Positions 12,201 through 31,061 of a stretch of 64,000 bases of DNA are shown one piece after another. The translations under genes were made by a program, and so were the position numbers. The number at the start of each line of letters is the position of its first letter. Position 1 is the first letter of the stretch. The notes beneath the pieces were generated by a model that saw only the letters and a program-made list of their open reading frames with translations, had not been told where the DNA came from and did no database searches. Source of the DNA: a virus; IMG/VR virus record IMGVR_UViG_3300021356_000010, positions 1-64,000 of that record, one strand, 5' to 3'.

Positions 12201-15200
12201 ACTTCATGTCCAACTAATACATCCGAATTGGTTGTAAATTGTAGTTCGGAACTTCCAGAAGAAGCTTGAGAACTTAGTTTTGCAAAATATCTAGTCTCTG
12301 TGCTCTTTACAGATTGTACTGCCAGTGCCCAGTTTTGATCTCCACGTAAGAATGTGAATGAGTTTGCAGTTCCTCCAGTAGCAATAACGTTTGCTGGGAT
12401 CGGACCACCAATAAGGGTAGAACCGTCGATAGTGCTGGAAGTTAGTGATACCCAGTTGTTACTATCAAATGATGATGTATTGACAACTCTGGTAAGATTA
12501 ACAGTTACTGCTGGGATATCACTGGATTCAATAGTATCGGTATCAGTAATAGCAATGTTATTGACAATATCGCCATACAATCTGCTTTCAATTAATGCGA
12601 CACCTGTTGCCTGTGTTCCAGATCCAGCAGGAGCAGAGAACGTTACTGTTGGAGCAGTTGTGTATCCTTTTCCTCCTTTATAACCATTGAATTCGACAAT
12701 AGTTACAGTTACAACTTCTCCATTTGCAATGGTACTAGTTGCTGCAGCAGATACTCCACCTTGCTGGGGATTACCACCAGCAATTGTTACTGTAGGTGGA
12801 GAGGTGTAACCAGAACCACCATCGGTAATATTGATGGTATGAACTACACCTTGTCTATATTCAGTTGCTTGAACTCTTCCTTGAGATATGCTGCCAAGGA
12901 AAATATCGCCAATTGTAAATTGGATAGTTGGATCAACACCAAATGCAAGGAACAAACTATCCAAGTCATTGTTAAGAATGAATGATGTAGTTGTGTCTTG
13001 CTGAATAGCAATGTCACCAGCGAGTGCTCCTTCGATAGAAGTTCTTTCTTGCTGGTCTGCAACAGTATAAACTTCAAATGGTCTTAGTGCTGGAATTTGG
13101 TCGATAGAAATCTTACCCGAATCGGTAAGTTCAACCAGTGCTCTAGGAACAGCATTTGTAGAGTATGGTTTGTTGATGTAAGGACCAAGGTTGTTAGTGA
13201 TATAGTCCTTAACTGCCTTTTGAGTAGGTAGTTTAGAGTCAGTAGCATTAGCACCACCAAGTGTGTTAGATGCATCGAAACCAGTAACAACAACGTCGCC
13301 ACCCTTCAGTTTCAAGAATTCAACTTCAGAGATAGTAACCGTGCCAGTAAAGGTGATAGCACCAGTTCTGTTTTCAATCTGAGCAAAAGTACCAACTTTG
13401 AAGTCACCTAGTTCGTCAGTACCAGAGACATATACACGACCATAGTCCTCAGAGACTTGCTCGTTTGCCTCTACTTTAGTACCACCGTTTTCAGGTAGTG
13501 CTAAGTAGTTAGTACCAGAACCTGCAAATTCCCAAGTGTGGGAAGAACTATTAACAATAGATGGTCTGTGAAGTCTGATGGTTTCTCCAAGAAGAGAAGC
13601 AGCAGTTTGAGGAGTTCCATCACTGTCTCTGATGACGCTATATGGTTGTCCAGTTCCATCGTCGATGGTGATCGTAGCAGAGAAAGGAGGACCAACTGTA
13701 ACACCAGATACTTCGTCGATGAAGTATTCTACTGTGCTTGATGTATTACTATGACCATCAACTTTAACAACATAGTGCTCTAGTGGTTCTCTTCCTAAAT
13801 TATCAACAGTAAAGATAGTTCTTCCAGTTGGAGTTGCAGAAACATTAACAATAGTACCAACGTCAAATGAATATGCCTCTCTTCTAAATCCTCTACCACG
13901 TAGAGCAAACTGACCAAAGTTTGTAGCGGAGTTTGTAACTGATGCATAACCACCAGACTCAGCAAGAATACCATCAGCACAGAAGATAACGAAGACCGAA
14001 ACTAACTGAGTGTAACCATCTTCAATAATTTTATATCCTGTACCACCAAAGGAGACGATGGTGAATGCAGATGCAACCATCGACTTACCCTGATTGGGGA
14101 AGGTTGCAGAACCATCAAGTTCTAGACCAGGGAAAGGACAGTTGGGTTGCTTAACTTTAGAACCATCAACTAGAGCACCACTACCACCTAAGAACGAAAT
14201 GATAGAAGAGTTCTGAGTATATGGCGATGCCTCAATGATTGGATAATCATCAAAGTCACCACGAATTGCCATCCTTTGATTGTTAGCATCATAGATGTAA
14301 CTATCTGGATATGTAATTACATTTGTAGTGTCAAATAATGTTCCTGTAGTCTTAGTAGTAGTTCCTGGTTCGATTGCAGTTCCACTAGCAGGATCCTCTG
14401 CATACTCTAGAATGCCATCTAGAATACCCATAGAAGTTGTGATAGATGCTTCTACGTTTGCACAAAGAGGATTGCCTAGAGGATCTGCTAGAATAGTTGC
14501 ATCAACAAACTGTGGAATTGGAGAAGATGTGGTTACAGCAGCGCCAGCACCATCTTTCCATCCACGCATCGCTGCGATAGCAAGATCTCTTACTTGAGTA
14601 TATGCATATCTGGTCTCTTCTATTTGAGATGCATCAATACCAGTCAGTGCAGTTCCTGTGAAGTATGTTTCTGCATTAGTTACAATTCCAGAGTTTCCTC
14701 CAAGAACAAGGTCTCTAATTAGACCACCTAGAATATAATTAATATCTCTACGGCACTTTCTTTGATGAATATCAGACAGTCCTAGAGAAGGGAACTGTGC
14801 CTCAGTATTGATAAGTGCTTGATCTGCAATCAGATCTCTGTTTCTAGCAATTAGATATGCAGCATCTAGATATGTGCCAGAAGCATCGTTAGCGATAACA
14901 TCAACATATAGATATGCAAGAGTATCGATAGCAGATCTTACATCATCACACGCAGGAGTTCCAGCAGTTGCTGTAATAACACTGTCGTCAAAATATCTTG
15001 GTACGCTAGAATATACTGGGGTATATGCTGGATTGCCTGGAGTTCCATCTCCAGTTCTCCAGTTTCTCATTGCAAGGATTGCTAGTTCTCTAGCATATTC
15101 AATTGCACGTACAGTCTGTATAATCTCATTTTCAATGTAAGCAATCTTAGCACCAACAATATACTTCTGTGCTGCTTCAATAATGTTATGGTTAGAACCA

Positions 15201-17989
15201 AATTCAAGGTCTCTTACAATGGCGTTGATAAAATGTCTTACATCTTGACGACACTGTTCATCACCATTAGTTTCGCTGTTTGTTACAGTAGGAGAACTGT
15301 ATGATGGATAGACTTTAGTTCCTGCCTCACAAGAAATTTCAAGACCTGCTAGTTGTACAGTATCGTCTTCTGAAAGATTTAGTGATACATCAGTAGTTAC
15401 TGTTGCTACTCCAGTTACTGCTGTGTCATAAACAAAATTAGTTACATTAGCAGTAACTCCACCGAAAGTTGCAGTACCAGTTGGATTTGCACTATCATAA
15501 GTATTTGCATGATCTAGTGTTCCTAGGAAAATATCAAAGGAAGTTCCACTTACATTATAAACAGAATAGTATTCTTTCTTGAATTGATCATTAATTCTTC
15601 CTACAACTTCATCCGCAATAAAATCTCTGTTGTTGCGTAAGAATACACAAGCATCTTGGAATCTTCTTTCTACTGGAGTAGAAAGACTGAAATTATTTGG
15701 TGAGTTTAGTAGTGTTAGTGTAACTGACTTGGAGTAAGATTTTACAACCGCTGTTTGTCCAGGATCAAAGTTTGAATCATTAATTGTTGGAGCTTTCTTT
15801 GGAATTACAAATCTTCTAGAACGACCATCAGCATCTTCTAGAACTTTGTAAATTCTTTGTTTGCCCATCAGGAAAGATAGGTCTGGATTTAGAGTAGGCA
15901 ATCCAGAGATTTCAATTTCTTGACCTTCTTTGAAGTCGTGAATGTTGTCTCTACCAACTAGTTGGTTTGTATAGAATACAATACCACCAAGATCTTCTGC
16001 ATTACCAAACTGAGCATTTTGGAAACCACCAGTTGCGATACTTGGATCTCCCTGTAGAGAGAAATCAATTCTCTGAATGGGAAGAGTAGAAGTTACATCT
16101 TCATCTACAGAAACAACTTCACCCTCTGCTCTAATTGATTTAATGGAGGTACTATCAAAAGACTCTGTTACGATAGCAGCCTGGAAAATATTGATAGATG
16201 CTGCTTGATTAGTTTCCCAAGAAGGTGAGTTGAGAATAGGTACAACTGTTACTTCATAACTAGTTGGAGCATTGGTATCATCAATAGTTGCAACTTCGTA
16301 GAATCCTTGAGTAAAGTTAGCATCTGCAGTATCATCTAGAAAGATATAACTTCCTGGAATAATGCTATCACCAGTAGGATTTGTCGAAAAGATCAGTGTG
16401 TTTGTTCCAGCAGTTGCTGTGATTGTTTGTGTATTGATCTGACTTCCTTGAGAACCAGAAACAATATAGTCAAATCTCTCACCTTCTACGAAAGAACCAC
16501 TAGTTAGAAGAACATCTACACTACCATTAATGTACGCTGATGCTCCAGTAGTTGTATCAAAAACAACATTACTAATTTTTGCTCTAGCACCAGTATTGAC
16601 ACCAACTACTTCTAAACCACTGGTAAGTGCTGATAGACCAGTGTTTTGCTGGAAATCGACATTGAATTTGTCTGGTCCAAAAATTTGATGACCAATTGGG
16701 AAATCTACACCAAAGTCTCCATTGACTTCATTGTCGATGACAACTCTTTGCTTGTCATCAAATACCATTGCAAAGTCCCAAGTTGCAACAGAGTCACCAT
16801 TTGAATCAATTTGATCGCGGAAGGTAACACCAATAACATAGTTTTTATCACCAAACTTGACCATGTGTTTGCCAGGATTGGCAGGTCTCATGATGACGAG
16901 ACGTAAGTTGTCACCTACAATGGAACAATCAGGTGGTAGAGAAATTGGGTTATCTTCTACGTAGTCACCACCAGAAACAATCAGTGTTTCTTTTACGCCA
17001 GGAGTTGACCATGCCAACTGTGCCGCTTTCTTAATTGTGCGAACAGGATTGACAGCAGAACGACCATCGTTTTGGTCGGAACCAATCTGTTGAGAAACAT
17101 AGATACGACCACCAACGTCATTCGTTGCTAGATTGAGGACGTATTCTGTAGTTGCAATCTTATCAGATCTGTCACCAAGTACAGGTGTAATAGATCTTGG
17201 ATATACACCAGATTCTCCTGTTGTTCCATATCCAAACGCTTCATTATCATCTACTCTAAAACCAATATGCTTTAGTGTAGCAGTACCATTGACCACTTCG
17301 CCATCAGTATGGGTTGGAGCATCTGCTCCAGTAGTACCAGAAACTGTTACTTGATAAATATTTGATCCAAAATATCTGTATGAATCTTTCTGTAAGAAAA
17401 CACTTGCAGACCAAAGAGTTCCTGTAGCGTTAGCGTAGGTTTTTAAGTTTGGAGCTCTGTGATTTAGATCAGGACTAATTAGATTATCAACATCTAGGTT
17501 GAGAATTCTTGCAGTATCAGAAATGATAGAAGTAGAAGTTCTGATAGCACCAGAAATATCTAATTCAAAATCAACCGTATCGAGTGTTGCTGTAGCAGCA
17601 GCACCTACACCACCACCTCCAGAAAATGTTACTGTTGGTGCAGAAGTATATCCACTTCCTGGATTATTAACAGCAATTGTAGTTACTTCACCATTGAAGA
17701 TGAAAGCAGAAGCAAGAGCTTGAACTCCACCAGATGCTGGGGGAGAAATATTTACGGAAGGTGCGCTAGTATATCCAGAACCGCCAGCGGTGATTTTAAT
17801 CGTATCAACTCTTTGCCCAGTTCTATTGATACCAACACGAGGCAATCCAGTATTGCTATCAAGTTGAGCACGAAGGATTTCTTTTTCTAACGAGCCTGTA
17901 CCCGATCGAATGGTAAGTTCGTTATCACCGATGAGTTTGGGTTGAGAACCTCTTACAAACTCTTTATCGGAATTGATATTAAAACTCAT
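9200..17989 (-). CDS. Giant tail fibre-like virion protein, 2929 aa
   Basis: Domains read from the sequence: two GGSGYTSAPSVNI-type beta repeats near residues 30-130; a segment around residues 290-400 starting IYVSQQIGSDQNDGRSA and TIKKAAQLAW, which looks like the entry of a right-handed beta-helix; a helical region at roughly 760-1180 with three related modules (pattern RN-R-D-x-I-A-D ... R-D-L-x-x-G-G/S-N ... AxxAMRxW); more GGSGYT repeats near 1730-2060; and a fibre-like C-terminal half with short repeats such as LKAGDTMTGSLTLTG. It ends TVVTILDGAAWSII, as many cyanophage fibres do. It is likely a long fibre or baseplate-attached adhesin and may contain glycan-binding or depolymerase activity, which cannot be shown here. 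A late promoter lies 35 nt upstream. Confidence 0.8.
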   Translation of the reverse strand: MSFNINSDKEFVRGSQPKLIGDNELTIRSGTGSLEKEILRAQLDSNTGLPRVGINRTGQRVDTIKITAGGSGYTSAPSVNISPPASGGVQALASAFIFNGEVTTIAVNNPGSGYTSAPTVTFSGGGGVGAAATATLDTVDFELDISGAIRTSTSIISDTARILNLDVDNLISPDLNHRAPNLKTYANATGTLWSASVFLQKDSYRYFGSNIYQVTVSGTTGADAPTHTDGEVVNGTATLKHIGFRVDDNEAFGYGTTGESGVYPRSITPVLGDRSDKIATTEYVLNLATNDVGGRIYVSQQIGSDQNDGRSAVNPVRTIKKAAQLAWSTPGVKETLIVSGGDYVEDNPISLPPDCSIVGDNLRLVIMRPANPGKHMVKFGDKNYVIGVTFRDQIDSNGDSVATWDFAMVFDDKQRVVIDNEVNGDFGVDFPIGHQIFGPDKFNVDFQQNTGLSALTSGLEVVGVNTGARAKISNVVFDTTTGASAYINGSVDVLLTSGSFVEGERFDYIVSGSQGSQINTQTITATAGTNTLIFSTNPTGDSIIPGSYIFLDDTADANFTQGFYEVATIDDTNAPTSYEVTVVPILNSPSWETNQAASINIFQAAIVTESFDSTSIKSIRAEGEVVSVDEDVTSTLPIQRIDFSLQGDPSIATGGFQNAQFGNAEDLGGIVFYTNQLVGRDNIHDFKEGQEIEISGLPTLNPDLSFLMGKQRIYKVLEDADGRSRRFVIPKKAPTINDSNFDPGQTAVVKSYSKSVTLTLLNSPNNFSLSTPVERRFQDACVFLRNNRDFIADEVVGRINDQFKKEYYSVYNVSGTSFDIFLGTLDHANTYDSANPTGTATFGGVTANVTNFVYDTAVTGVATVTTDVSLNLSEDDTVQLAGLEISCEAGTKVYPSYSSPTVTNSETNGDEQCRQDVRHFINAIVRDLEFGSNHNIIEAAQKYIVGAKIAYIENEIIQTVRAIEYARELAILAMRNWRTGDGTPGNPAYTPVYSSVPRYFDDSVITATAGTPACDDVRSAIDTLAYLYVDVIANDASGTYLDAAYLIARNRDLIADQALINTEAQFPSLGLSDIHQRKCRRDINYILGGLIRDLVLGGNSGIVTNAETYFTGTALTGIDASQIEETRYAYTQVRDLAIAAMRGWKDGAGAAVTTSSPIPQFVDATILADPLGNPLCANVEASITTSMGILDGILEYAEDPASGTAIEPGTTTKTTGTLFDTTNVITYPDSYIYDANNQRMAIRGDFDDYPIIEASPYTQNSSIISFLGGSGALVDGSKVKQPNCPFPGLELDGSATFPNQGKSMVASAFTIVSFGGTGYKIIEDGYTQLVSVFVIFCADGILAESGGYASVTNSATNFGQFALRGRGFRREAYSFDVGTIVNVSATPTGRTIFTVDNLGREPLEHYVVKVDGHSNTSSTVEYFIDEVSGVTVGPPFSATITIDDGTGQPYSVIRDSDGTPQTAASLLGETIRLHRPSIVNSSSHTWEFAGSGTNYLALPENGGTKVEANEQVSEDYGRVYVSGTDELGDFKVGTFAQIENRTGAITFTGTVTISEVEFLKLKGGDVVVTGFDASNTLGGANATDSKLPTQKAVKDYITNNLGPYINKPYSTNAVPRALVELTDSGKISIDQIPALRPFEVYTVADQQERTSIEGALAGDIAIQQDTTTSFILNNDLDSLFLAFGVDPTIQFTIGDIFLGSISQGRVQATEYRQGVVHTINITDGGSGYTSPPTVTIAGGNPQQGGVSAAATSTIANGEVVTVTIVEFNGYKGGKGYTTAPTVTFSAPAGSGTQATGVALIESRLYGDIVNNIAITDTDTIESSDIPAVTVNLTRVVNTSSFDSNNWVSLTSSTIDGSTLIGGPIPANVIATGGTANSFTFLRGDQNWALAVQSVKSTETRYFAKLSSQASSGSSELQFTTNSDVLVGHEVVANVTGIQANTNIDGVLTSGGFTTISLSNTLTSTIPVGTVIEFDRGSSPITFESSYTQGGFVDSIVIASGGSGFTNGQYFDQQLLGGTGTGLRANITVANNAISDIVVTDGGVGFTADFNITTLPTATIGAGSNAVLAAKISTVNKQYANVAIDVQRVTDLTVSADLFGTIGVARFKKSQFDIGTEGNGSVTLKTGADSGLDADLLDGAQGAFYLNSTNQNSGTLPTDRLSGTYNISISGSSANTIRLITGTNNPTSNPSPNNFVEGIIANTINNSANGLNDGGSKNLVMTIRNGGSGFDASFGGVRQLAFTDNDNMYLRGSGTGLTAFGSWGKIWSSLNDGPGSDLDADKLDNRQGIWYQNALNVNYGTLSDERLPRFISASSIRDDLTIKSFNGDPRYQIYVSGLVLGSTPFTPGNSVNLYNSNSQNVGEITIDNLIVNDDTVDNFNDYTIIVGRLTTGNFIGAETIGSASNRVPFQDFSIEDGNTIDVAVLESDSGTANLRLGRKDGVSSAPGIYFNSSQLAANYNVAMIASGGNGTDGSGTLNVQVVNADGMTINGNQIWNSGNIQFQTTNVPNTAVLRDANGDIAVGAITGNVTGAASLNVLKAGDTMTGSLTLTGAGSNLSVSGTSTLTGDTTIAGDLIVDTNTFFVDASTNRVGINSGTPARTFDIGGSGAGDVVGIKGGNYNQVNIAHSSNSAWGLLISNSDNTLNSAYHFSTSGNNSSCAIVNMSEDALHFGTNNVERMTIKHDGTVGIGTNNPDSNYRLDVNAAARIRSNLTLDSANDNSGVGVNFLGSSSFRNFRIGNQLIGDDIFSIQASTANGGTTWNATPAIAIDGDTNRVSINTTTTTVNGIDMQLNVDGNFNLNGTLYANGSPFVTSKWTDSTTGGHIYRLSRVGVNQADPDYQLHVNGSSNFVGASFGTTTASASNNNNDNAMRVMGDRQYIDTYGVMKANRNTVAENVTVPANTNCMSAGPIELTGNTVVTILDGAAWSII

Positions 17990-18032: not shown

Positions 18033-18533
18033 TCACTGCCATGCAATACTTACTACTTGAGTGCTAACAACCCACTTGATAACATTCGTTGTACCAGCTC
18101 TTGTGGTAGAGTATGAAAATCTATTAGTTCCTCCTAGAGGAGATATCTCCCAAGTTTGTCCTGATGGAATATCATCCTTAATAACAGTATTCATACTTGA
18201 CAAAACAGACACTAAACCAGCATTGTCACAAGTAACAACACTTTCTATCTTTTCAGAATAAACTGTCCCCGAAGGATTGACAGCAATTACATGACCTGTG
18301 ACAAAATTAAGTGTGTTATTATCAATTGTAATTTGAGAACCAACTGTATCCAATTGTAATACAGCTGTATTTACTCCCCTCAATATGTAATTGACGGTTT
18401 TACTATCTGTAAATTCAGCGTTTTTAATTTCTAAAGTATTGAAATCTTTAGCATTTCTAAGTTCATCAACAACGACAGTTTTATCGATAGAGAATCCACC
18501 AACTGAGTCAAATTTATCTTTTGTAGTTGCCAT
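18033..18533 (-). CDS. Conserved virion-associated protein, 166 aa
   Basis: The product starts MATTKDKFDSVGGFSIDKTV and is mostly predicted beta structure with many Val, Thr, Ser and Asn, ending KWVVSTQVVSIAWQ. It lacks a signal peptide and membrane segment. It lies between two giant fibre-like genes, two bases after the 1403-aa gene. I recognise it as a conserved cyanophage protein of this locus, probably a small fibre or baseplate component, but no function is established. Confidence 0.7.
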   Translation of the reverse strand: MATTKDKFDSVGGFSIDKTVVVDELRNAKDFNTLEIKNAEFTDSKTVNYILRGVNTAVLQLDTVGSQITIDNNTLNFVTGHVIAVNPSGTVYSEKIESVVTCDNAGLVSVLSSMNTVIKDDIPSGQTWEISPLGGTNRFSYSTTRAGTTNVIKWVVSTQVVSIAWQ

Positions 18534-18535
18534 TT

Positions 18536-21500
18536 TTATTTCTTAGCGAGTTGTGAAATTACTTTAATATTAACCAAATCATTAGCTGCCACACTTGCAT
18601 CCAAGTCAATATTAATTCTCACGATACCTGCTCCTGTCAATTCAATACCAGTTGAAATGAGCTGACCAGATGATCTTACATTTCCATACTCAGTGTGGAA
18701 TGCATCTGTTCCATTATCTATAACAGCATACTCGATAAATTCTCTCTCACCAGTAGTTGCATTGTTAGCAAAAACTGTTACCTTAGAACCCATTGCGACA
18801 GAAGTTGCATATAAATCAGCACTACCAGAATCGATAGTACCCTTATCCAAGTTAATTGTTTCCGTTACAATCTGATAATCAGCAAGTTCGAAGTCTTTTA
18901 GTTCTCCGTCAAAAACTTTAACTCCAGAGAAGGTTCCTGTGCCAAAACCAATATTGAAATAAACATCACCTTGATCATCCAAACGTAAGACTGGATCTGT
19001 GTTGAGTCCAGAAGAAAGACCAAGATCAAAGTATTGTTTTGATGTATGTAAAAATGTAGTATCTACAGCAGTGTTGTCGAGGGTTGTTGTGGCATTATCA
19101 AATAGAATTGTGGAAGCAGTAAATTCTAGGATATTTGAGACAGGACTGCTAATAGAATCAACTCCGCGCATCTCAAGATTTGCGGTAGTCAAATTAACAG
19201 TATTGTTACCATCGTTATAGAAGAACAATGTGTTCTCATTTGCGCCAGGAGCAGTCTCTGGGATGATGTAAGTATTTTGATCAACGTCTTTTACACCACC
19301 AAGAGAACCCCAGTTAGTTCCATCGTAACCTTCATATGTGAAAGTTGTGGTATTGAAACGAATTGATCCCTGAATAGGAATACCTCTTTCAGCAGTTGTT
19401 CCTGCTGGAATTGCCAAAGTTGTATTAGCATCAACTACAACTTTCTTTCCAGTATTTGGTGCTAGGGTCAGATCACTGACATCTGTGGATATAGTGCTGC
19501 CTACAAGTCTTAGATCACTGCTAATGCTTAATGGTACATCTGTATCAGGACCAATTTTTAAAGTGCCGATCTCCTCAAAAGTTAGATCTGCTACAGCAGA
19601 TGCGGAATACTGTAGAGTTGCAGTTCCATTTGTAAATGTATTGCCACTTGTATTAGTTGGTGGATCTTGTGTTACGCCAGTTGTTCCAGGAGAAATTACG
19701 ATATAAATGTCGTGCTTATACTTTAGATAATCTCCAGCAACAACAGGAGTATTAGCAGTCCAATTTACATACGCAGGAGCAGTTACATTTACAGATCTTA
19801 CTTTTTTAACTTCTACAAATTCTTGATAGAACGGAGTAAATCTTACAGTGTTGTCACCATCATTATAGAACCATAAAGTATTATCGTTTGCTCCTACTGT
19901 TTGTTCTGCTAGAATGTATGTGTTTCCATCTAGGTCTCTAATACCACCCAAGGAAGACCACGAAGTATTCGTAGCACTATATCCTTCATATTGATTTGTA
20001 TCTGTGTTGAATCTAATTTGTCCATCCGCTGCAAATCCTAATGGGGGTCTTGCAGCAGTAGATCCCACTGGAATTGTTAGAGCAGAATTTGCATCTACCT
20101 TTACAACTTTTGTTGCATCTGGAGTTAGAAGTAGATCATCACCTGATCCAACTACGGAAATATTATTATCTACAATAGAAAGAATATTATTTACGTTTAG
20201 TTCGTTAGTAGTTTTTAATACTCCAGTGGTAGTAACATTTCCTGTTAGTGGAACAACTGTGAGTGTAGTGCCATTGACACCACCAACGTAAATATATCCT
20301 GCATCAATATTTAAATTCCCTAGTGGAGAAGATACTGATATATTATTAGTAGAATTTGGAAGAATATTATCTGCTTCTAAATTTGTAAATGTTCCTAAAG
20401 GAGAGGTTACAGATGTATTTCCAGTTACGGTGTCTGCTGTTACCGTTGTAGATGTAACAGATCCAGTTACAGATAATGCACCAGTATTACTTATGGTAAT
20501 TGGAATTGTACTATCAATATCAGTAACTGCAATAGAAGCTTCTATTTCGTTACCAGACAGTCCTGCTGGGTTTGCTACAAGAGCAGTTCTATCTAATTGA
20601 AGTACATCACCTGTATAGTAATTTCTACCAGGATTTGTAATTGTAATACTTTCTAGAGTTCCCTCTTTGGTAATCTCAAACTCAAATCCATCATCTCCAC
20701 CATAATTACCTGGATCTGGTGGTAGTCTTAAAATATCTCCTACTACATATCCAGTTCCTCTATTGACAAATACAATATCGGAAATTGCTCTTCGGTTTGA
20801 GATTCTATATTCAAAACCAGATCCGCTATTTCCTGTAATGGAATTATTGAAAGAAAGAATATCTCCTTCTACGTATCCAGTACCTTCTGTTGTAATTGTT
20901 ACAGTAGTAACTGTACCAACAATTGTGACAGACGTGTATGCTACTAATGCTCCAGATCCAGTTCCACCAAGATATGAGTTATCTACAGTTACTTGGTCTC
21001 CTGACTTCCAATTTGTTCCGCGAGTTGCTATATCCCAAGAAATAATTGAACCGCCAGATACTTCTACATTTGCGGTTTGATCAAAAATATATTGCCCAAT
21101 AGCTGGAGTAGCAGATATTGCAAAAACAATACTTCTTCCATCTGGACCAGTGCTTGGCGTAAGTCCTAATCCAGTAATAGATTGATTTACAACTTCTGGT
21201 GTTATGATTAGCAGTGAATATGCACCAGCAAGTCCAGGAGTACCATAATTCTTTAGTCTGACAATTGTATTGTCTAGTGTTACTCCAAAATCATCAGTAA
21301 GAGCAATGTCATATCCACTATTTGATGCATCTGAAGTATCTAATAAAATAGTTTGGGAATAATCAACAGATGTATTGAGTGCTGTGGTATCAGTACCATT
21401 CAGCAAGTATTGATACTTATCTGTAACTGCTGCTTTTACAATTCCATATGCACCAGCAGCAGAAATTTCTTCGCCAACTGTAAATGTTCCAGTTACTGAT

Positions 21501-22747
21501 GAAAAATAAAGTGCTCCAAGTTGATCACTAAAATTAACAACCGTGCCACTTCCACTTGCACCAACAATAGTATCTCCAACAGCAAATGAGTTTCCTGTGT
21601 TAGTTCCAATGGTGATGGTGCCAGTCATCGAACCATGGTTTCCACAGACATAGTAATAAGTTCCAGCAAAAACTTCACTGGTATCAAAAATAATAGTACC
21701 ACTGTCAGTACCATTGTTTGTTACACCATCAGCAGCAATTAAAACATTTGCTGGATCATATGGTCCTGCTACTGATTGTAAGTAGAATGGATGCCCTGGT
21801 GCGTTAATATTGAATACTAAATAATCTCCCTCTTCGGCAGTAATAGCAACATTATTTCCAGACGTTGCTCCAGCAAAAACAAAATTTGTATTTGCTCCGT
21901 CGTCAGTTACGTTCCACTCGTAACGTCTTCCGTATGTAAATAATAACTCTTTTCTTTGAGCAACTGTTAGGTTGATAGTCTGTGTTGGAACGTTATCAAC
22001 AGGAACACTTGAATATGTGCCATCAACATAACCAGTACCAGCATTAGAGATAGTAGAATTAAATGTAATACTACCAGTTACTTCAATGTCTGCTACCTTA
22101 CCGTTTCCAACTCCACCATCCAGTGCTACATTAGTGTAAGTGCCTGGAAAATATTCGGTTCCACCATTCTGGATAATTCCCTTAGTTGCTACTTCTGTAG
22201 TTACGATTTGGAAGTCAATTGCTGCATTACTTCCTGTTCCACCACCCAGAGGAATGTTTGAGTATGTACCAGTTACATACTCATCAACATTACTGTTTGT
22301 AGTTTCTTGACCATTATATTCTGCGATGACAACAGTTGCTTGAGCTCCTACTCCACTACCACCAAACAAAGCAACGTTGGGGTAAGTTCCTACATCATAT
22401 TCAGATCCAGTCTCTGTAACGCTGAGATACGTATCATCTAGAAAGTTATTCCTTACGAATAAATCATTCTCAAAATATGTACCATAATCATTATATGTAA
22501 ATGCCAATCTATCGTTGCTAACAAATCCGATAGTATTAGAATTATTTTTGTATAAACCTAATTTATTGTCAGACTGAAAGGTCAGTGCTGGAGCAGATTT
22601 TGTACCATCTTGTAGAGAAACTCCTGCTGGAGAAATTGTAGCACCACCCGATCCTCCAGTGAGATCAAATAGATCCTCTGCGATTTCGTTGATTTTGACC
22701 CTTTGTTGCTCAAAGGTGTCAGTTCTGGCGACATTAATTGCTGGCAT
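18536..22747 (-). CDS. Fibre-like virion protein, 1403 aa, with a cupredoxin domain
   Basis: The N-terminus (MPAINVARTDTFEQQRVKIN) is followed by fibre-type segments (SDNKLGLYKNNSNTIGF) and several repeats of the form GTYxNVxLxGGxGxGA. Between residues about 270 and 385 there is a complete cupredoxin-like domain: GHPFY with His319, and YYYVCGNHGSMTGTI with Cys368, His371 and Met374. The Cys-x2-His-x2-Met spacing equals that of amicyanin, and the His-to-Cys distance of 49 is like plastocyanin. The C-terminal two thirds contain repeated GGSG-type and SGDDLLLTPDATKVV-type blocks. The likely role is a tail or baseplate fibre; copper binding is inferred from ligands only. It overlaps the 68-aa gene upstream by 14 nt. 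Confidence 0.8.
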   Translation of the reverse strand: MPAINVARTDTFEQQRVKINEIAEDLFDLTGGSGGATISPAGVSLQDGTKSAPALTFQSDNKLGLYKNNSNTIGFVSNDRLAFTYNDYGTYFENDLFVRNNFLDDTYLSVTETGSEYDVGTYPNVALFGGSGVGAQATVVIAEYNGQETTNSNVDEYVTGTYSNIPLGGGTGSNAAIDFQIVTTEVATKGIIQNGGTEYFPGTYTNVALDGGVGNGKVADIEVTGSITFNSTISNAGTGYVDGTYSSVPVDNVPTQTINLTVAQRKELLFTYGRRYEWNVTDDGANTNFVFAGATSGNNVAITAEEGDYLVFNINAPGHPFYLQSVAGPYDPANVLIAADGVTNNGTDSGTIIFDTSEVFAGTYYYVCGNHGSMTGTITIGTNTGNSFAVGDTIVGASGSGTVVNFSDQLGALYFSSVTGTFTVGEEISAAGAYGIVKAAVTDKYQYLLNGTDTTALNTSVDYSQTILLDTSDASNSGYDIALTDDFGVTLDNTIVRLKNYGTPGLAGAYSLLIITPEVVNQSITGLGLTPSTGPDGRSIVFAISATPAIGQYIFDQTANVEVSGGSIISWDIATRGTNWKSGDQVTVDNSYLGGTGSGALVAYTSVTIVGTVTTVTITTEGTGYVEGDILSFNNSITGNSGSGFEYRISNRRAISDIVFVNRGTGYVVGDILRLPPDPGNYGGDDGFEFEITKEGTLESITITNPGRNYYTGDVLQLDRTALVANPAGLSGNEIEASIAVTDIDSTIPITISNTGALSVTGSVTSTTVTADTVTGNTSVTSPLGTFTNLEADNILPNSTNNISVSSPLGNLNIDAGYIYVGGVNGTTLTVVPLTGNVTTTGVLKTTNELNVNNILSIVDNNISVVGSGDDLLLTPDATKVVKVDANSALTIPVGSTAARPPLGFAADGQIRFNTDTNQYEGYSATNTSWSSLGGIRDLDGNTYILAEQTVGANDNTLWFYNDGDNTVRFTPFYQEFVEVKKVRSVNVTAPAYVNWTANTPVVAGDYLKYKHDIYIVISPGTTGVTQDPPTNTSGNTFTNGTATLQYSASAVADLTFEEIGTLKIGPDTDVPLSISSDLRLVGSTISTDVSDLTLAPNTGKKVVVDANTTLAIPAGTTAERGIPIQGSIRFNTTTFTYEGYDGTNWGSLGGVKDVDQNTYIIPETAPGANENTLFFYNDGNNTVNLTTANLEMRGVDSISSPVSNILEFTASTILFDNATTTLDNTAVDTTFLHTSKQYFDLGLSSGLNTDPVLRLDDQGDVYFNIGFGTGTFSGVKVFDGELKDFELADYQIVTETINLDKGTIDSGSADLYATSVAMGSKVTVFANNATTGEREFIEYAVIDNGTDAFHTEYGNVRSSGQLISTGIELTGAGIVRINIDLDASVAANDLVNIKVISQLAKK

Positions 22748-22940
22748 TTTTGATTAACTCTCGCAGTAAGGCTTTGATTTCAGATACTTCATCCTTCAAG
22801 TTATTTATGTCATCCAACGCGGAATTCAACTGTTTTTGTTTACGTCTCGCTTGGATAGCAGAATCGTCGCGATTCAAGATGGCACCTGTGGTCTCGTCTC
22901 TGACAAGACCATCATGCCCCGACACTTTGATATATGACAT
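22734..22940 (-). CDS. Small coiled-coil protein, 68 aa
   Basis: The product begins MSYIKVSGHDGLVRDETTG and then turns into a charged helix (DINNLKDEVSEIKALLRELI) with heptad spacing. This N-terminal pattern followed by a coiled coil is familiar from cyanophages, where it occurs near baseplate and fibre genes. Its function is unknown; a trimeric adaptor or chaperone would fit. It ends within the start of the 1403-aa gene and follows the DUF4815 gene by 9 nt. Confidence 0.75.
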   Translation of the reverse strand: MSYIKVSGHDGLVRDETTGAILNRDDSAIQARRKQKQLNSALDDINNLKDEVSEIKALLRELIKNASN

Positions 22941-22949
22941 ACGCGGAAA

Positions 22950-25900
22950 TTAGAACGATGCAACAACTCGGATATCTTGAATTTTTGGAACGAATGCAGG
23001 ATCTACTCCCTTCATAACTACCTTCACTGCAAAAGATGAAAACTCTGGTAGGTCAGAAACACTGAATGCAAGTTCTTGATATGAACTTTGCTTTTCTACA
23101 ATTGAAGAAATTGTATTTTCAGGGTTTGCAATTTCTAAAGTATCAGGAGATCCATCTACATTGAAATACTGCCAATCAATATCGTCAAAGTTTTCTTGAC
23201 TCGATGCTTTCTTGAACTTGTACAAGACAGCAACATTAGATACATCCTTAAGGTTAGCAGTCAATCTAACATCAATCGTTGTAGCAGGACTTGAAATAGA
23301 TACTTCCTTGGTAACATACTTAGCAACCGAAGAACTATTCTTAGAAGTATTTTCTGCTACAAACTCAACACCATTGGTGTATGATACAGTGGAGATTTCT
23401 AGGAAAGATGCTTCATCATCTGGTTGATCAGGATACTTAACAAAATCTCCAACACGGAAGATATCAGCAACTTGAGCATTTACAACAGCATTTCTATTGA
23501 ATAGAACGTTGTCGATAATTCTTCCGTTGTAATCATCATTGATAGGTCTAGCATCATTTCTTACAGTTAGTTCCTGTGTCTTATTATTCCAGATAACTGC
23601 TCTACCAGTAATGATATTTTCATATGTTTCTAGAATGATAGATGGATTTCTAGCAACAATTACAGATGCATCATTAATGCTGGTAATTATTTGAGTCAAA
23701 GCACTATCAACAGTGACACCAGATAGTGAGAGTTGATTTCCTAGATCAACTTCCTCACCTTTCTCGAAGATCTGAGAAGTTTTGATTCTAACAAAAACTG
23801 TAGATCCGTCAATCTTAGCAATAGTTCCAGCAGCTTTTGAAGTCTTGCCTTTAATTGTTTGATTGCTCTGAATCTCTGTATTTTGATTTCCAGTCAAGGT
23901 GAAACTGTAGATAGGATAGAAGGAAACAACTTGATTTCTTCTTCCATAGCGATCTTCAGTTCCAGAACCATTCTCAATTCTATTGCTTATTGTCTTAACA
24001 GAACAAGAAGATAGATCGACAAGTGGTGAAAGATATGAGACAGTAGATGATAGAGACAACTTGTATTCTAAAGATGTATCAAGACTATTAAGAGTCTCAT
24101 TGATCTCAGAAGTAACCATCTTCTGGTTTGTGAAATAATGTGGTTCATTCAAGAATGTCTTTTCATAATCTGTCTGAGAATATGATGTATAATTTGTAGT
24201 AGTAGAATCTACAGGAACTACATTTGTAGTTTTAACAGTAGATTCTAATGTGGTTCCAGTGAATGACAGATAATGAACTTGTGGATATAGAGTTTCAAAT
24301 TTTCTATTGTAAGTTGCAAAAACATCGGAACCACCACCAACAGCATTGCCAGCAGACTGGTTTGTTGATCTAATAGTATAAGTATCGATACCAGAATTAT
24401 CAACCTGGAACAATACACTGTTCAGTGTTTCTGCAGTGATACCAGCAGTTTCTTGTGCTCCTCTGTAGAATACATAAGAATTTCCACGATCCTCAAATCC
24501 ATTATCTCTATGCGCGACTTTCACGATAGAATTGTTGTTGCCAAACAATAGAGAAGTTGCATTTGTGTTGGAAGATGCATCTGTCTTGAATGGATTAATA
24601 TCTAGTTTCTCATAACCTAACTTCTCATTAGTAAGAACAAGTTCTGCTGGTCTTGTAATACTAAACTCTGCTCTGTATAGAGTGAATTTAATATCTTCAA
24701 AGATGTCTTCTGTCCAAGTATCAATATTTTGTGATCTATAGACAGAACCTAGAGATGGTTGTGTGGTAATAATTGTATTCGTAGCTACATCAGTTTCCCC
24801 TAGACGAGAAGCCCAAATAGCGTAATCAACAGAATCCGTTTCTACTGCTAGTGCATACTCAGTATCATTTTGCAAATAGATTGGATTATCAAATGCAAAG
24901 TAGGTTGGAGTAGAAGACTCAATTGCACCTGAAACCTCAACGTCATCAATTGCAACACCCATTCTAACTGCTGGGGTATCAATATCAATAAACGTTTCTA
25001 CTTGACATCCTCCTGCCCCATTTCCGATGCCTTTAATTACAACAGCAGGTGGTTCTGTGTATCCAAAACCATTGAGGACTACTTCTGCATTATAGATCTT
25101 GCCGTCTGAAACATCGATTCTTGCAGTAGCTACTGATCCTCCTGGAATTTGAGGACTTTCAATTGTCAAGATAGCACTATCGTAATTTGCTCCTGGGTTC
25201 GTGATTTTTATGTTAGAAACCTTACCACTGTCTTTAGCGATACTTACTGTGAAGTTAGTTCCGTTTGTATTATTAGCAGTGGTGACAGAACCGATTGTTA
25301 GATTTTCATTCTGTTGGAAAGATCTTCCATTATGATTACTCAACACTAGAGTATATACTTGCTCATTTGTTATTGCAATCTTTCCAGTTGATGATGGAAT
25401 TAATTCAACACCATTCTTGTCAATGATCTTCTTGATAGGACCACTTGCTGCAGAACTAGATCCAATTACAGACTCACCAACATCAACTGTTACCGTTCCA
25501 GTAGTGAAGATTTTCAAATACGTATCTGGAGTTAGAGTCTTCTCAGTTCCAGGTACAATATTTTTTCCTGGTTTGTCACCTTCTACATCAGTCAAATATA
25601 CTTTAACTGGAATGTTAGAACTCTTCTTATTAAAGAATAGATCAATACCAGTTACAAACAATCCACCATCATAGTTTTCAACTTTAAATGTTTGTGCTAG
25701 TGGGTTTGGTCTGATTGGATTTTCTGTATTATTATCAACTATCTGAACACCCTCATTTGCCTTGAAGTATGCTGGTTTTGTTGATACGATACCTGAAGGA
25801 TTCTGTGGTAGAACTCCAGTAGCATAGAATTTAACTTCTGCATATGTATCGACATTATTTTTGTTTTCATCAGTAGCACTAGATGTAAATCTAATTGTTT

Positions 25901-28900
25901 TTACACCTGCTGTTACTCTTACTTCCTCGAATGAAGAATCATAATCAACGGTAGCAACATCTCCAGTCCAAGTAGAGTTTTCTCTTGGTGGATGTCCTGC
26001 AGGAACTAGAATCAAACCACTGGCATTACCATTCTCGTCAGTAACAATATCACCATTAAATGCTGATAGGGAGTTTGTTGCAGTTCCAGTAAATCTAAAG
26101 TCTGGATTAACCCATCTGTCAATATTTCTTCCTTCTAAGAATACAGAAACTTTAGTATTTGGTTTTAATCTTCTAAGGACAAATCTAACTGGAATGCTTC
26201 TAGCAAAGAACTGAAGAGAATCGGAAACAATACTGTTACCAACAGTCTTAGATTGGACTCCTTTAGCAACCTCATTGTTTTGTGGATTGACATTAGAAGA
26301 ACTGCCAATAGACGCCATGCTTACAGTTGCATTTGCTTCTAGAGTATTGATTTCTCCAAGAGAAACAATTGAAGTGAAACTTGAAGAAGTTCCTACCCAG
26401 TTGATAGCAAATGAATTGAATAGACTGGAGAATGAATCTCTAATATTTTCTTTTGCAATAAAGATGTTGTAGAGACTTGTATTGGTATTTACAATTAGAG
26501 GTTCTACAGTATCATCATACCACTGATCAATAGATGGATTGATGGAAGCATCACCAACATATTGAATGACAACAAATGGATTTGGATTTAGAGTCTTGGA
26601 AGCAAAATTGTTACCAAGTAGAGATAGTGATGTATATGGAAGAGTAACTACATTGCCAGTCTTCTGATAACCAGCAACTGTTCTTTGATCTTCTCTTGTA
26701 TTGACTTCTCTCAATGCTAGAGAGTCCTCCTTAGACTGAGGTCTAAGAACAGACTGCTGACTGTCAATAGAGCATAAGTAGTCTGCTGAGGAAATATTAC
26801 CAACTCTATGCTCTTCAAAGTTATCGACTAAGAATCCGCTCTTGAATCTATCCAATCCAATGCTATCTTTAACTTGCATGTTGAGAGCTTGTTGCTCAAG
26901 AATGCTAAGTGTTGTATAATACTCAAGACGCTCAATACGCTTCTCCAATTTACCGATGTCACGCATCGTGTAACGACGGTTATCAACTGGAGTAATTCTT
27001 ACATTCTTACTCGAAGATGTGTAAGCAGGGATGTAAGCATAGAAGAGAGGAATTGCATCTTCAATTGGATCTGGTTTGGTTGGGTTGAGAGATGAGTTAC
27101 CTTCTTTGACGATAAACTCACCCTTCTTATTCAAGAACACTCCATCAATACGATCAAGGTATTGAATTTGACTAAAGGAGAATGTGTATTCGAGATTTTT
27201 ATCTGGAGCAGGGGTGCTAGCAATAACAGAACCAGGACCAGAGAACTGACCAGTTGTTACAGATAAAGAAGACTGATCTTGGAATCCTGGAATGATTGCA
27301 TTGCTATCAACTTTTGGTCTAAAGTCTATAACATTTTTCAATTCTAGGTTTCCATGGACAGCAGAATTAAATCCAGGAATTTCATCTTCTGTTACACCAG
27401 CTTCGTGAAGATAACTGTCGATTGTACAGAAGTCTCCCTGAGAGTGCTCGAAGTAATCAAAAGAGATTACCAATTGACCAGAGGTAGCTTCAAATCCTGG
27501 TTTTAGAACAATTCTTGAGACATCTAGAATAGTATCTCTCTGTCCATTATCAAATGTAAATCTATCAGTAACATCGGTTCCAGAAATCAAGTTACCAGCA
27601 CTGTCGATAGTTGGTGCTTGAGATGCAGTTCCCTCATAGACAAAGTTCAACTTGTATGCATCAGAATAAGTCAGAATTTCTACGACCTCACTGTCGTAGT
27701 CTGTTCCTCTGAAAGGAATTACTCTGTCACCAGATGCACTAATAACAATTCTCTTATTTTCTACAGAAGTCTTTAGTCTTGGTTTTGCGTTGGTAACTTC
27801 AATAGTTGATGAAAGTTTTAGTTTAGGGAATGTTCCGTTGGTAGGAATAGTTCCAAAATATGTTGATGGTAACTGAAGACTAATACTACCAGATGTAAGA
27901 CCACTAGCAGTATCAGTAGCGGAAGTAATTTCTACGCTATCAGTAGGAACATAAACAATATCTCCAACTGTCAAGTCTGGTGCATCACCTGGATCTAAGA
28001 CAGTAATAATATAGTTATCTTCATTGAAAGCAACAAATCTCTGAGTACCGAATGGCAACTGAGCTGCAAACGTAATGGTTCCACCACCAGAAGATGCAGT
28101 TGTTACAAAGTCTCTTCTGAAGTAATACTTAATCTTGGTGTCATCACCACCAGCAGAAATTTGTTCTACTTGCTTGCTACCAGTTGGGAAGACTAGAGTT
28201 CCTGCATTTGGATTCTGTACCTTAGGTCTTAGTCTAACAATACTTGTGTTTGTTACATCTCCTGGTAGAGCAATATCTAGATATACTCTGGTCTTGGATG
28301 GTCCAGACTGCTCAGTTGCATACTGTACAACTGCTCTAACGAGATTGTTATCGACATCAGAAAATTGAACAAGGTCTCCCTGCTGTAGAACACCGCTAGC
28401 GTCTGCACTGAAACTTGTGGATTCGATAAACTTATAACCTTTTGATCCAAAGAAAGTAAAATCAGTAACCGATTTAATTTCAGAATAAGTTTGACTATCT
28501 ACTACTAAATCTGCTGTGAATGTATTTGCATTTCCAGATCCGTATTGGCAACCAATTGATTTTACATTCTGTGGTGTGTATGTTGTAACTGCATTTCTAA
28601 CCAGAACTGGAACAATTGCAGCTGCTGTTTGTGGTTGTGCAACTCCCTCTGCCTGCAATGCAGTTACTGCTGGTGGTTGTGCGTATTCAATATTAACAGA
28701 ATTTCTATCTTTGATTTCTACTTTATAAATTTTGCCTGTTGCATCTTCTCCAGCAATCGAGAGTTGAATCTTAGATGAATCATACTCAACTCCATTGATT
28801 AACAGAGTCGATAGTGAAGAATAACCAAGACCTCTGTTCTGAACAACAAAGTGTGAAATAGTATTATTTGTCGCAATCTTGAGAGTATTTCCAGCTTCAT

Positions 28901-31061
28901 CTCTAATTGTTTCACCAGAAACAAAATTACCAGATAAAGTTTTCACAAAAAGCATGTTGGTCGTAGTATATACTCCATTTGGAGCTCCTTCAACTACACC
29001 ATATGCACCACTAGTCAATCCGAATACATACTTTCCTTCATCAAAAGTTTCAGATTGGATTCTGGAGTCTAGTAAGATTTTTGTAAAGAATGAAGGATCA
29101 AAATAAGAGAATCCAAAAACAGCATTGTAAGCAGCAGTTCCTGCAGATAATCTTCCCTTAGACAGAACAATATCGGCATCAGGATTAAAACCATCTCCTC
29201 TGCTTTGTAGAGAGAAATTACTTGGTTTTACTTTACCAATTACAGGAGTAATGGTATCGCTATAATCAACAACAAATCCTAGTTCGTTGTCTCCTATGGT
29301 AGCATCGGATTGTGAGAGATACAATCTTCTGATATATCCAGGATCTCCATCGTCATACTCTCTTAAAAGTAGATCTACTTCATCTTTGTCTCCAAACACT
29401 GTCAATTCTAAGAATTGAACTGACTCAGCAGAATTGATGAGAGGTCTATTTACGGATGCAAATGATAGAGAAGTTACAGATCCAATAGAAGTAGCAGATC
29501 CTGTGTCATCTCTAGAGGTAACATAATATAGAGTTCCAATTTGACTCTCGAAAGTTCCATCAGTGATCCCTACTAGAGGATTAGTAGCACTAGTTACTTG
29601 AATTGTAATAGTTTTGATTGCATCATTGGAAGAGAAAATTTTGCCTCTTCTAGACAAAGTTTGTCTGTGATCTGTAGATGCTTCTGTATTGCTTAATCCA
29701 ATAGAACCATCATTAAATGTAGAATATAAGAATACATCAGGATATGCTGTAAGATCAGATCCTTCTTTGTTTAGTGGAGTGCTACCATAAACGTTAGTAA
29801 CACTGAACGTTGGAAGTCCTCTAGTCTTTAGAGTTACATTATCGCTAGATAGACTTTCTCTTGCTTTGTTGATCTCAAGATATTTGGTCTCTTTATTGAC
29901 AATTTCATATCCTTTAATATATGCTTTTCCTGGTCCAATGCTAGCGATCATCTTTCTAGATGCTTCACTAGCAGAAATACCATTGTAGAGACCAATGTCA
30001 TCTACTGCATAAATTCCGTTGTTATTATCTTTCTGAGCATACTCTCTGACATCAACAGAGAAATTATCTACAACATAATCTCCGCTTTCATCATACGTTC
30101 TTCTTGCAAGAGTTTGCTCAAGAATGCTATAATTTGTTGGAGTAACCTTTTTCTGAATGACTCCTCTAAGAACAGTGATTAACTGAATAAAGTTTCTATC
30201 AGTGATTGCATTTACAGCAAACTCTTTTAGTGAAAGGTTAATCTTTAGTCTATGAGCTCCAGGTGCTGTATAGTTTGATGATCCAATAGCATTATCGTAG
30301 AGACTTGGATCTTCTTCTGGAGTTACAATTTCTTCGTTAATAACAAAACCAACTTTTGCAGATGGTTTGTCATAATACTCATCAATGATTAAAAGTTCTT
30401 CGTTGTTTCTTACAAAGAATCCATTGACAAAGTAAATACCTTCTTCTACTTTTACAGCAGAAGCATAACCCATTGCTGGACTTTCTAGAGAAGTAACTTC
30501 TCCTGTGTCTGGGTTGGTAACTTGAATACTGGTTGGGAGGACACTACCGTCCGTTCCAACAACCATTAGTGGTGTATTTACACCATCTACTACCTCAATG
30601 GTTTCCCCCTGTCTAAAGGTCTCCTCTGAGTTAGAATTACCACTGTTAAGATAATTTACATACAGAGTGTCTGCTGCCTCTTCTGTAGCAGTATTAGCAT
30701 CAAGGACTGTTGCTAGTACGCCAGAATTTAATCCTCTGATCTGTAGTCCTTTGAGTAAGGTAATATCGTATTTTTTATATACGATATCATTTCCTTCCCC
30801 AACTGCAACTTCAGATACAGAGGATAGTTTTACGTAATCTAATTTTGTATTAAGACCTACTTCTCCAGGGACAACTAATTGTCCCTGCTTGAAGGCGTAT
30901 TTTCCAAAACTTTCAACCTGATTCTGTAGAATCGATTGAAGTTGAGTTAATTCTCTACCTTGAATAGAGTAACCAGGACGAAAAAGAATTTTATAGAAAT
31001 TCTTATTTACGTCAAAGTCATCGTAGTATGGTGATGCATTAAGGTTAGTCTTCTGAGGCAT
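22950..31061 (-). CDS. DUF4815-type giant baseplate/tail protein, 2703 aa
   Basis: The N-terminus (NASPYYDDFDVNKNFYKILF, GYSIQGRELTQLQSILQNQV) is characteristic of the DUF4815 family of large cyanophage virion proteins found next to gp8. Further on there are conserved family segments around LAQTFKVENYDGGLFVTGID and YALAVETDSVDYAIWASRLG. GxGYxxPPAVVI-like repeats occur near residues 760 and 1990. A region around NRRYTMRDIGKLEKRIERLE is helical. In T4 the equivalent place holds gp9-gp11, so this may be the fibre-attachment part of the baseplate; that is inference. A CTAAATA motif lies 37 nt upstream of the start. Confidence 0.82.
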   Translation of the reverse strand: MPQKTNLNASPYYDDFDVNKNFYKILFRPGYSIQGRELTQLQSILQNQVESFGKYAFKQGQLVVPGEVGLNTKLDYVKLSSVSEVAVGEGNDIVYKKYDITLLKGLQIRGLNSGVLATVLDANTATEEAADTLYVNYLNSGNSNSEETFRQGETIEVVDGVNTPLMVVGTDGSVLPTSIQVTNPDTGEVTSLESPAMGYASAVKVEEGIYFVNGFFVRNNEELLIIDEYYDKPSAKVGFVINEEIVTPEEDPSLYDNAIGSSNYTAPGAHRLKINLSLKEFAVNAITDRNFIQLITVLRGVIQKKVTPTNYSILEQTLARRTYDESGDYVVDNFSVDVREYAQKDNNNGIYAVDDIGLYNGISASEASRKMIASIGPGKAYIKGYEIVNKETKYLEINKARESLSSDNVTLKTRGLPTFSVTNVYGSTPLNKEGSDLTAYPDVFLYSTFNDGSIGLSNTEASTDHRQTLSRRGKIFSSNDAIKTITIQVTSATNPLVGITDGTFESQIGTLYYVTSRDDTGSATSIGSVTSLSFASVNRPLINSAESVQFLELTVFGDKDEVDLLLREYDDGDPGYIRRLYLSQSDATIGDNELGFVVDYSDTITPVIGKVKPSNFSLQSRGDGFNPDADIVLSKGRLSAGTAAYNAVFGFSYFDPSFFTKILLDSRIQSETFDEGKYVFGLTSGAYGVVEGAPNGVYTTTNMLFVKTLSGNFVSGETIRDEAGNTLKIATNNTISHFVVQNRGLGYSSLSTLLINGVEYDSSKIQLSIAGEDATGKIYKVEIKDRNSVNIEYAQPPAVTALQAEGVAQPQTAAAIVPVLVRNAVTTYTPQNVKSIGCQYGSGNANTFTADLVVDSQTYSEIKSVTDFTFFGSKGYKFIESTSFSADASGVLQQGDLVQFSDVDNNLVRAVVQYATEQSGPSKTRVYLDIALPGDVTNTSIVRLRPKVQNPNAGTLVFPTGSKQVEQISAGGDDTKIKYYFRRDFVTTASSGGGTITFAAQLPFGTQRFVAFNEDNYIITVLDPGDAPDLTVGDIVYVPTDSVEITSATDTASGLTSGSISLQLPSTYFGTIPTNGTFPKLKLSSTIEVTNAKPRLKTSVENKRIVISASGDRVIPFRGTDYDSEVVEILTYSDAYKLNFVYEGTASQAPTIDSAGNLISGTDVTDRFTFDNGQRDTILDVSRIVLKPGFEATSGQLVISFDYFEHSQGDFCTIDSYLHEAGVTEDEIPGFNSAVHGNLELKNVIDFRPKVDSNAIIPGFQDQSSLSVTTGQFSGPGSVIASTPAPDKNLEYTFSFSQIQYLDRIDGVFLNKKGEFIVKEGNSSLNPTKPDPIEDAIPLFYAYIPAYTSSSKNVRITPVDNRRYTMRDIGKLEKRIERLEYYTTLSILEQQALNMQVKDSIGLDRFKSGFLVDNFEEHRVGNISSADYLCSIDSQQSVLRPQSKEDSLALREVNTREDQRTVAGYQKTGNVVTLPYTSLSLLGNNFASKTLNPNPFVVIQYVGDASINPSIDQWYDDTVEPLIVNTNTSLYNIFIAKENIRDSFSSLFNSFAINWVGTSSSFTSIVSLGEINTLEANATVSMASIGSSSNVNPQNNEVAKGVQSKTVGNSIVSDSLQFFARSIPVRFVLRRLKPNTKVSVFLEGRNIDRWVNPDFRFTGTATNSLSAFNGDIVTDENGNASGLILVPAGHPPRENSTWTGDVATVDYDSSFEEVRVTAGVKTIRFTSSATDENKNNVDTYAEVKFYATGVLPQNPSGIVSTKPAYFKANEGVQIVDNNTENPIRPNPLAQTFKVENYDGGLFVTGIDLFFNKKSSNIPVKVYLTDVEGDKPGKNIVPGTEKTLTPDTYLKIFTTGTVTVDVGESVIGSSSAASGPIKKIIDKNGVELIPSSTGKIAITNEQVYTLVLSNHNGRSFQQNENLTIGSVTTANNTNGTNFTVSIAKDSGKVSNIKITNPGANYDSAILTIESPQIPGGSVATARIDVSDGKIYNAEVVLNGFGYTEPPAVVIKGIGNGAGGCQVETFIDIDTPAVRMGVAIDDVEVSGAIESSTPTYFAFDNPIYLQNDTEYALAVETDSVDYAIWASRLGETDVATNTIITTQPSLGSVYRSQNIDTWTEDIFEDIKFTLYRAEFSITRPAELVLTNEKLGYEKLDINPFKTDASSNTNATSLLFGNNNSIVKVAHRDNGFEDRGNSYVFYRGAQETAGITAETLNSVLFQVDNSGIDTYTIRSTNQSAGNAVGGGSDVFATYNRKFETLYPQVHYLSFTGTTLESTVKTTNVVPVDSTTTNYTSYSQTDYEKTFLNEPHYFTNQKMVTSEINETLNSLDTSLEYKLSLSSTVSYLSPLVDLSSCSVKTISNRIENGSGTEDRYGRRNQVVSFYPIYSFTLTGNQNTEIQSNQTIKGKTSKAAGTIAKIDGSTVFVRIKTSQIFEKGEEVDLGNQLSLSGVTVDSALTQIITSINDASVIVARNPSIILETYENIITGRAVIWNNKTQELTVRNDARPINDDYNGRIIDNVLFNRNAVVNAQVADIFRVGDFVKYPDQPDDEASFLEISTVSYTNGVEFVAENTSKNSSSVAKYVTKEVSISSPATTIDVRLTANLKDVSNVAVLYKFKKASSQENFDDIDWQYFNVDGSPDTLEIANPENTISSIVEKQSSYQELAFSVSDLPEFSSFAVKVVMKGVDPAFVPKIQDIRVVASF

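Follow-up and report, generated by a model that had tools for sequence, protein, structure and literature searches.

We found that a virion structural protein of 1403 aa, encoded in a 64,000-nucleotide stretch of the IMG/VR virus record IMGVR_UViG_3300021356_000010 (the window), carries at residues 275-381 what profile matches and structure prediction identify as a cupredoxin (blue-copper) domain with an intact type-1 ligand set. In addition, comparison of orthologous sequences indicates that one complete site per chain is nearly always kept while the domain that carries it changes. The features concerned are the following, by position in the window.

9200..17989, minus strand: tail fibre protein, 2929 aa (phrog_5342, E=0)
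18033..18533, minus strand: virion structural protein, 166 aa, downstream neighbour (phrog_5449, E=2.2e-74)
18536..22747, minus strand: virion structural protein with the predicted cupredoxin domain, 1403 aa (open reading frame)
21113..21454, minus strand: putative relic (residues 432-545) of a second cupredoxin domain that has lost its ligands (profile A7, E=1.1e-10; alignment A9)
about 21605..21925, minus strand: predicted cupredoxin domain with a complete type-1 copper ligand set, residues 275-381 (profile matches, AlphaFold, Foldseek)
21626..21646, minus strand: ligand loop Cys368-x2-His371-x2-Met374, within YYYVCGNHGSMTG (sequence and model)
21626-21628, minus strand: Met374 codon
21635-21637, minus strand: His371 codon
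21644-21646, minus strand: Cys368 codon
21791-21793, minus strand: His319, the first ligand, in GHPFY (residues 318-322), in the model loop between strands 55-61 and 67-70
22448..22747, minus strand: conserved N-terminus MPAINVARTDTFEQQR... of the 1403-aa protein, used to pick orthologues blind to the cupredoxin domain
22734..22940, minus strand: virion structural protein, 68 aa, between the gp7-like gene and the 1403-aa gene (phrog_473)
22950..31061, minus strand: DUF4815 / gp7-like baseplate protein, 2703 aa, upstream neighbour (Pfam PF16075, E=1.3e-48)
43491..45284, minus strand: gp6-like baseplate wedge subunit, marker of the baseplate cluster (phrog_219, E=2.9e-211)

Predicted fold and virion context

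The ligands read in the 1403-aa open reading frame exactly as the initial annotation had listed them, with 49 residues from His319 to Cys368 and the C-x2-H-x2-M spacing of the amicyanin loop CTPHPFM. The interval proposed there, 21590-21940, proved slightly short: the domain spans about 21605-21925, and reaches 21985 with its N-terminal linker included. The sequence has the marks of a type-1 copper site, namely the order His...Cys-x(n)-His-x(n)-Met, a cysteine that ends a strand and a loop that precedes the last strand. Cys368 is the sole cysteine among the 1403 residues, which include 5 histidines and 4 methionines.

Firstly, we assessed the fold with profiles. Taken singly, the window domain scores 13.3-13.5 bits against PF00127 (Copper-bind), below the gathering cut-off of 21.2 bits, and its best PDB match is azurin (E=0.23). 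A profile of 34 phage relatives matches rusticyanin (6e-6), plastocyanin (1.8e-5) and amicyanin (9e-5) in the PDB, and a larger profile of 117 sequences retrieves the same families. Relative L028 (25.1 bits) and all four flavobacterial homologues tested (22.1-23.4 bits) lie above the PF00127 cut-off. Weak Pfam matches of the domain family include Ig-like families. The narrower families fit poorly: Plastocyanin TIGR02656 gives 15.4 bits against an equivalog cut-off of 87.85, and Amicyanin TIGR02657 (cut-off 110.2 bits) gives no match with the window domain and only weak matches with other family members, the best flavobacterial relatives reaching 25.3-27.6 bits.

Secondly, an AlphaFold model (window plus IMG/VR rows) is a confident eight-stranded Greek-key beta-sandwich (pLDDT 92.6; strands 21-28, 35-39, 48-51, 55-61, 67-70, 95-101, 108-114 and 121-127). 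Cys368 ends the penultimate strand (108-114), and the loop with His371 and Met374 leads into the last one (121-127), so that the placement of the four ligands in the model corresponds to the standard cupredoxin layout. Every one of the 50 PDB fold matches listed by Foldseek is a type-1 copper or multicopper protein; they comprise rusticyanins, copper nitrite reductases, azurin, laccases and other multicopper oxidases, including 2fta and 2vmj, in which the amicyanin loop is grafted into azurin or nitrite reductase. The Foldseek probability to cupredoxins is 1.00, although TM-scores to solved cupredoxins are only 0.4-0.6. Against a viral structure library, the two best matches give rmsd values of 1.0 and 1.8 Angstrom; most of the top matches that have a name are tail proteins of cyanophages or S8 protease ORFs. 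Residues 275-381 thus almost certainly adopt a cupredoxin fold, as the initial annotation had proposed along with the complete ligand set, and the structure prediction and Foldseek comparison for which it had called both bear this out.

The domain therefore resembles the PF00127 cupredoxins (plastocyanin, amicyanin, azurin, rusticyanin) in its predicted Greek-key sandwich, its four type-1 ligands in order, its Cys-loop between the last two strands and its significant profile similarity, with relatives above the Pfam cut-off. It differs from them in that the window domain itself falls below that cut-off and in being a module of a large virion protein, without a known redox partner. Its loop has the spacing of the amicyanin loop, the shortest natural one, but the residues are C-G-N-H-G-S-M and there is no methylamine dehydrogenase context.

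Thirdly, we examined the protein that carries the domain. Among PHROG profiles, phrog_6005 (virion structural protein) covers residues 730-1403 (1226 bits, E=0), and this C-terminal-half match and the conserved gene order together place the protein in phrog_6005. Its syntenic orthologues are virion structural proteins in S-RSM4, ACG-2014h, ACG-2014i and S-RIM32, with a gp7-like protein on one side and a tail fibre on the other; the gene in the position of the 2703-aa gp7-like gene is annotated in ACG-2014h as 'baseplate wedge initiator', gp7. The window has the same baseplate cluster, in the order gp6 ... gp7-like gene, 1403-aa gene, 166-aa protein, tail fibre. On its sequence, the window phage is an S-RSM4-like cyanomyovirus, and homology to PHROGs and annotated proteins identifies the 1403-aa product as a virion protein. 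The initial description as a virion fibre protein hence holds for the virion and for the cyanomyovirus-like phage, but 'fibre' is imprecise for a gene of the baseplate cluster.

Elsewhere in the window, a 229-aa protein in the structural region (45852-46541, minus strand) matches phrog_3704, labelled ferredoxin, and at least six genes are 2OG-Fe(II) oxygenase-like, among them those at 5315-7030, 52120-52740, 60646-61266 and 62574-63227 (minus strand).

Ligand conservation and the one-site pattern

The first set of loci had been fetched by ligand-containing patterns and a regex filter. Because of this risk of circularity, we masked the four ligand columns in the profile and picked orthologues by their N-terminus. 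With the masked profile, 320 of 329 distinct domains (those with letters in all four ligand columns) read His-Cys-His-Met. The loop is C-x2-H-x2-M in 316 of these 320 and C-x2-H-x3-M in the other 4. Four exceptional rows keep at most one ligand, which none of 20,000 shuffles reached; the rows being related, this is not a formal probability, but it indicates that ligand losses tend to come together, in an all-or-none manner. Among 117 clustered sequences, the invariant columns are one tyrosine and the Cys, His and Met ligands, the first His being present at 90% or more, and the ligand Cys is often a protein's only cysteine. The ligands are also kept in domains in which an insert extends the His-Cys gap to about 115-125 residues; two orthologues (L352 and L354, at about residues 615-700 and 700-775) have a fibre-type stretch between His and Cys and all four ligands. 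Persistence of the ligands in close and distant homologues, which the initial annotation had set as a check, was thus observed, and these alignments show that what is conserved is the putative metal site, beyond the fold alone.

Asparagine is common after the first His in blue-copper proteins. In this family, the residue is proline in 322 of the 329 domains. The corresponding residue, Asn54 of amicyanin and Ser86 of rusticyanin, tunes potential and stability (PMC12723479). The proline in place of asparagine implies that the properties of the site may be unusual.

We then compared 62 complete, distinct orthologues, chosen by their first 100 residues and with those from GenBank added; the orthologue set as a whole numbers 455. 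Exactly one C-x2-H-x(2-4)-M motif is present in 60 of the 62, which, being related and recombining, are not 60 independent cases; one orthologue (L479) has two motifs, and one (L478) has no site at all, yet persists. Chance occurrence of the motif was considered and rejected, since residue shuffling of these 62 yields 0.00024 motifs per protein, while about one is observed. The site lies at about residue 340-400, in an early domain, in 35 proteins, and at 580-920, in a later, interrupted domain, in 25. In early-site proteins, the later domain is generally retained, with LYYYD or a similar sequence in its Cys-strand; its fold is kept and its ligands are lost. The apparent lack of the domain in the cyanophage orthologues was also rejected: these domains are missed by tblastn with the window domain and found by a motif and profile scan. 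The cupredoxins of S-RSM4, ACG-2014h, ACG-2014i and S-RIM32 are of a different subfamily; two of the four lie elsewhere in the chain.

The window protein illustrates the replacement. Directly downstream of its intact domain lies the relic at residues 432-545, in which the alignment shows the His changed to Tyr and the whole Cys-His-Met loop deleted. In the window clade, this relic appears to be the old early-type domain, and the adjoining main-subfamily cupredoxin carries the site. The early-type (second) subfamily also has a cupredoxin model, of pLDDT 93, whose best matches are nitrite reductase and rusticyanin. Its profile A7 by itself gives no convincing match in the PDB, so that its cupredoxin status rests on the cross-matches between profiles A5 and A7 and on the model.

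On the tree of the C-terminal region, site position requires 11 changes; as the middle region may be exchanged in one piece by recombination, we do not take these for as many independent events. On the domain-B tree, the losses need 1-4 events (4, with 1 forced). Since recombination can move the whole state, and given these 1-4 losses, independent replacements are probably few and their number is uncertain.

Occurrence in phages and cells

The window domain matches 41 GenBank phage records. One other subfamily member used as query matches 352, of which 345 are Synechococcus, Cyanophage or Prochlorococcus records, and connector proteins are prominent among the matches listed. For scale, the sheath stabiliser of the window matches 2104 T4-like records, 593 of them Escherichia; no Escherichia record is found among the cupredoxin-domain matches in GenBank phage records, and T4 itself yielded no such domain. 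S-PM2 gives no match with either cupredoxin profile. The proteins that contain the domain are proximal tail fibres, S8-protease ORFs, connectors and fibre-like proteins. Scans of IMG/VR yielded hundreds of loci. Two PHROG families are among the closest known systems: phrog_677, 'baseplate wedge tail fiber protein connector', has a cupredoxin domain at its C-terminus (phrog_677 positions 306-409), and phrog_9158 has the same domain, also C-terminal. They differ in the host protein, and their annotation makes no mention of copper.

Further arrangements were seen among the scanned loci. Several cyanophage ORFs (L002:6016-6333, L008:6004-6321, L009, L010 and L012) have this family's cupredoxin exactly at their end; one is annotated as a subtilisin-like protease (S-H9-1), and others are S8/S53 in the viral structure library. 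On a marine virus contig (L033:5803-6129), a cupredoxin end of the C-x2-H-x3-M type follows an HWHL stretch resembling a PEBP-like domain. Two contigs binned as Euryarchaeota (L276, L298) encode phage-tail-like proteins and are probably mis-binned phage.

All four ligands are also present in the Pelagibacter (SAR11) phages Baldr and Mosig, in the Methylophilales phage Melnitz-3 and in the Prochlorococcus podophage P-SCSP2. Cellular relatives from the scan are mostly proteins of marine Flavobacteria, many with lipoprotein-like N-termini and all four ligands. Some consist of the domain alone (about 140 aa); in others, surface proteins with DUF285 and Ig-like repeats, it comes last. Stand-alone examples of about 140-150 aa, mostly lipoprotein-like, are L337, L338, L340, L335 and L343; these have the appearance of marine flavobacterial blue copper proteins not yet described. 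The window domain is thus, by homology, a member of a large marine family that comprises phage tail proteins and flavobacterial surface lipoproteins. Full-text literature searches returned no report of a cupredoxin or blue-copper domain in phage tails, which is weak evidence, most subscription journals being outside their coverage. The domain, called unexpected in the initial annotation, is so for the searched literature, but it is common in these viruses.

Probable copper binding and the proposed role of the site

On balance, we lean towards a copper-binding baseplate or fibre module, probably a metal-stabilised surface or adhesion module, as the best explanation overall. That the domain binds copper in nature is, from sequence and model, quite probable; for its role as a metal-clasped surface or adhesion module, which we infer, the case is evenly balanced. 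The domain would bind copper in the virion, and would most likely take it up once the particle has left the copper-poor cytosol. When bound, the metal would fix the ligand loop and clasp the sandwich, making it a rigid, protease-resistant module at the surface of the baseplate or fibre, which could take part in host-surface contact or hold the fibre in shape; electron transfer would be possible but not required. The retention of one site per chain next to sister domains that keep the fold only argues that the metal matters, and the occurrence in structural proteins that face seawater, in phages of differing hosts, favours a metal-clasped module over an electron carrier.

The known type-1 copper sites belong to electron-transfer proteins and oxidases. 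A redox-active site in the virion would exchange single electrons at the host surface, act as a redox or copper trigger of the baseplate, or blunt oxidative damage. The domain has the full ligand set of electron-transfer cupredoxins on the shortest natural loop, and among PDB entries it is closest to electron carriers and redox enzymes. However, the ligand set alone does not show electron transfer, and the domain sits inside structural proteins of 1400-1800 aa without a known partner and is also found in phages of non-photosynthetic hosts, which leaves this explanation unlikely.

Could the four residues be kept for packing in a mere Ig-like sandwich that binds no metal in nature? Ligand-less domains of the same fold exist and are kept in the same proteins, and Ig-like families are among the weak Pfam matches. 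Like the domain studied here, the Ig-like and other beta-sandwich modules of phage tails and capsids are small exchangeable modules found at varied positions in tail proteins. Unlike them, the cupredoxin family conserves a full type-1 ligand set, and we know of no description of such modules on tails or capsids as metal sites of the type-1 kind. The ligand-less domains themselves indicate that packing does not need the four residues; moreover, the all-or-none losses exceed chance, and 60 of 62 orthologues keep one complete site, often with the only cysteine of the protein. We therefore regard this explanation as improbable.

Another metal, such as Zn(II) or Ag(I), or mere sequestration of copper, seems hardly probable either. 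Type-1 sites do bind Zn, Hg and Ag in vitro, as established for azurin and plastocyanin, and the proline after the first His is unusual, but a cupredoxin with His-Cys-His-Met bears the signature of a copper site, and the close solved relatives are copper proteins.

Mimicry of plastocyanin, the host electron carrier, as the initial annotation had envisaged, is largely refuted and very improbable: although the window phage is S-RSM4-like and free petE plastocyanins, cupredoxins too, are known in cyanophages (PMC3037559), those are described as metabolic genes and are not part of the virion, in the solved plastocyanins aligned His and Met are two residues further apart than in the C-x2-H-x2-M loop, and the profile is equally near rusticyanin and amicyanin. 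The same domain with its four ligands in SAR11 (Pelagibacter) and Methylophilales phages and in flavobacterial lipoproteins also means that photosynthesis, to which the initial annotation had tied it, is not the common factor.

Both the fold and the site are known; the setting and the one-site evolutionary pattern are new. Together with the strong conservation of the ligands, this pattern suggests that the virions of these marine phages carry a copper site. We tentatively propose, at somewhat less than even confidence, that many marine phage virions are copper metalloproteins whose baseplate and fibre proteins have been selected for one type-1 site per chain, the site being moved to a non-orthologous domain, or replaced by the site of such a domain, as the old one decays, because copper binding itself would be needed for adsorption, stability or triggering in seawater. 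The one-site pattern makes the copper idea directly testable in cultured, harmless laboratory systems. Should the sites hold copper, ocean viruses would amount to a pool of protein-bound copper that has not been counted, and the stability or adsorption of phages could be affected by how much copper is available.
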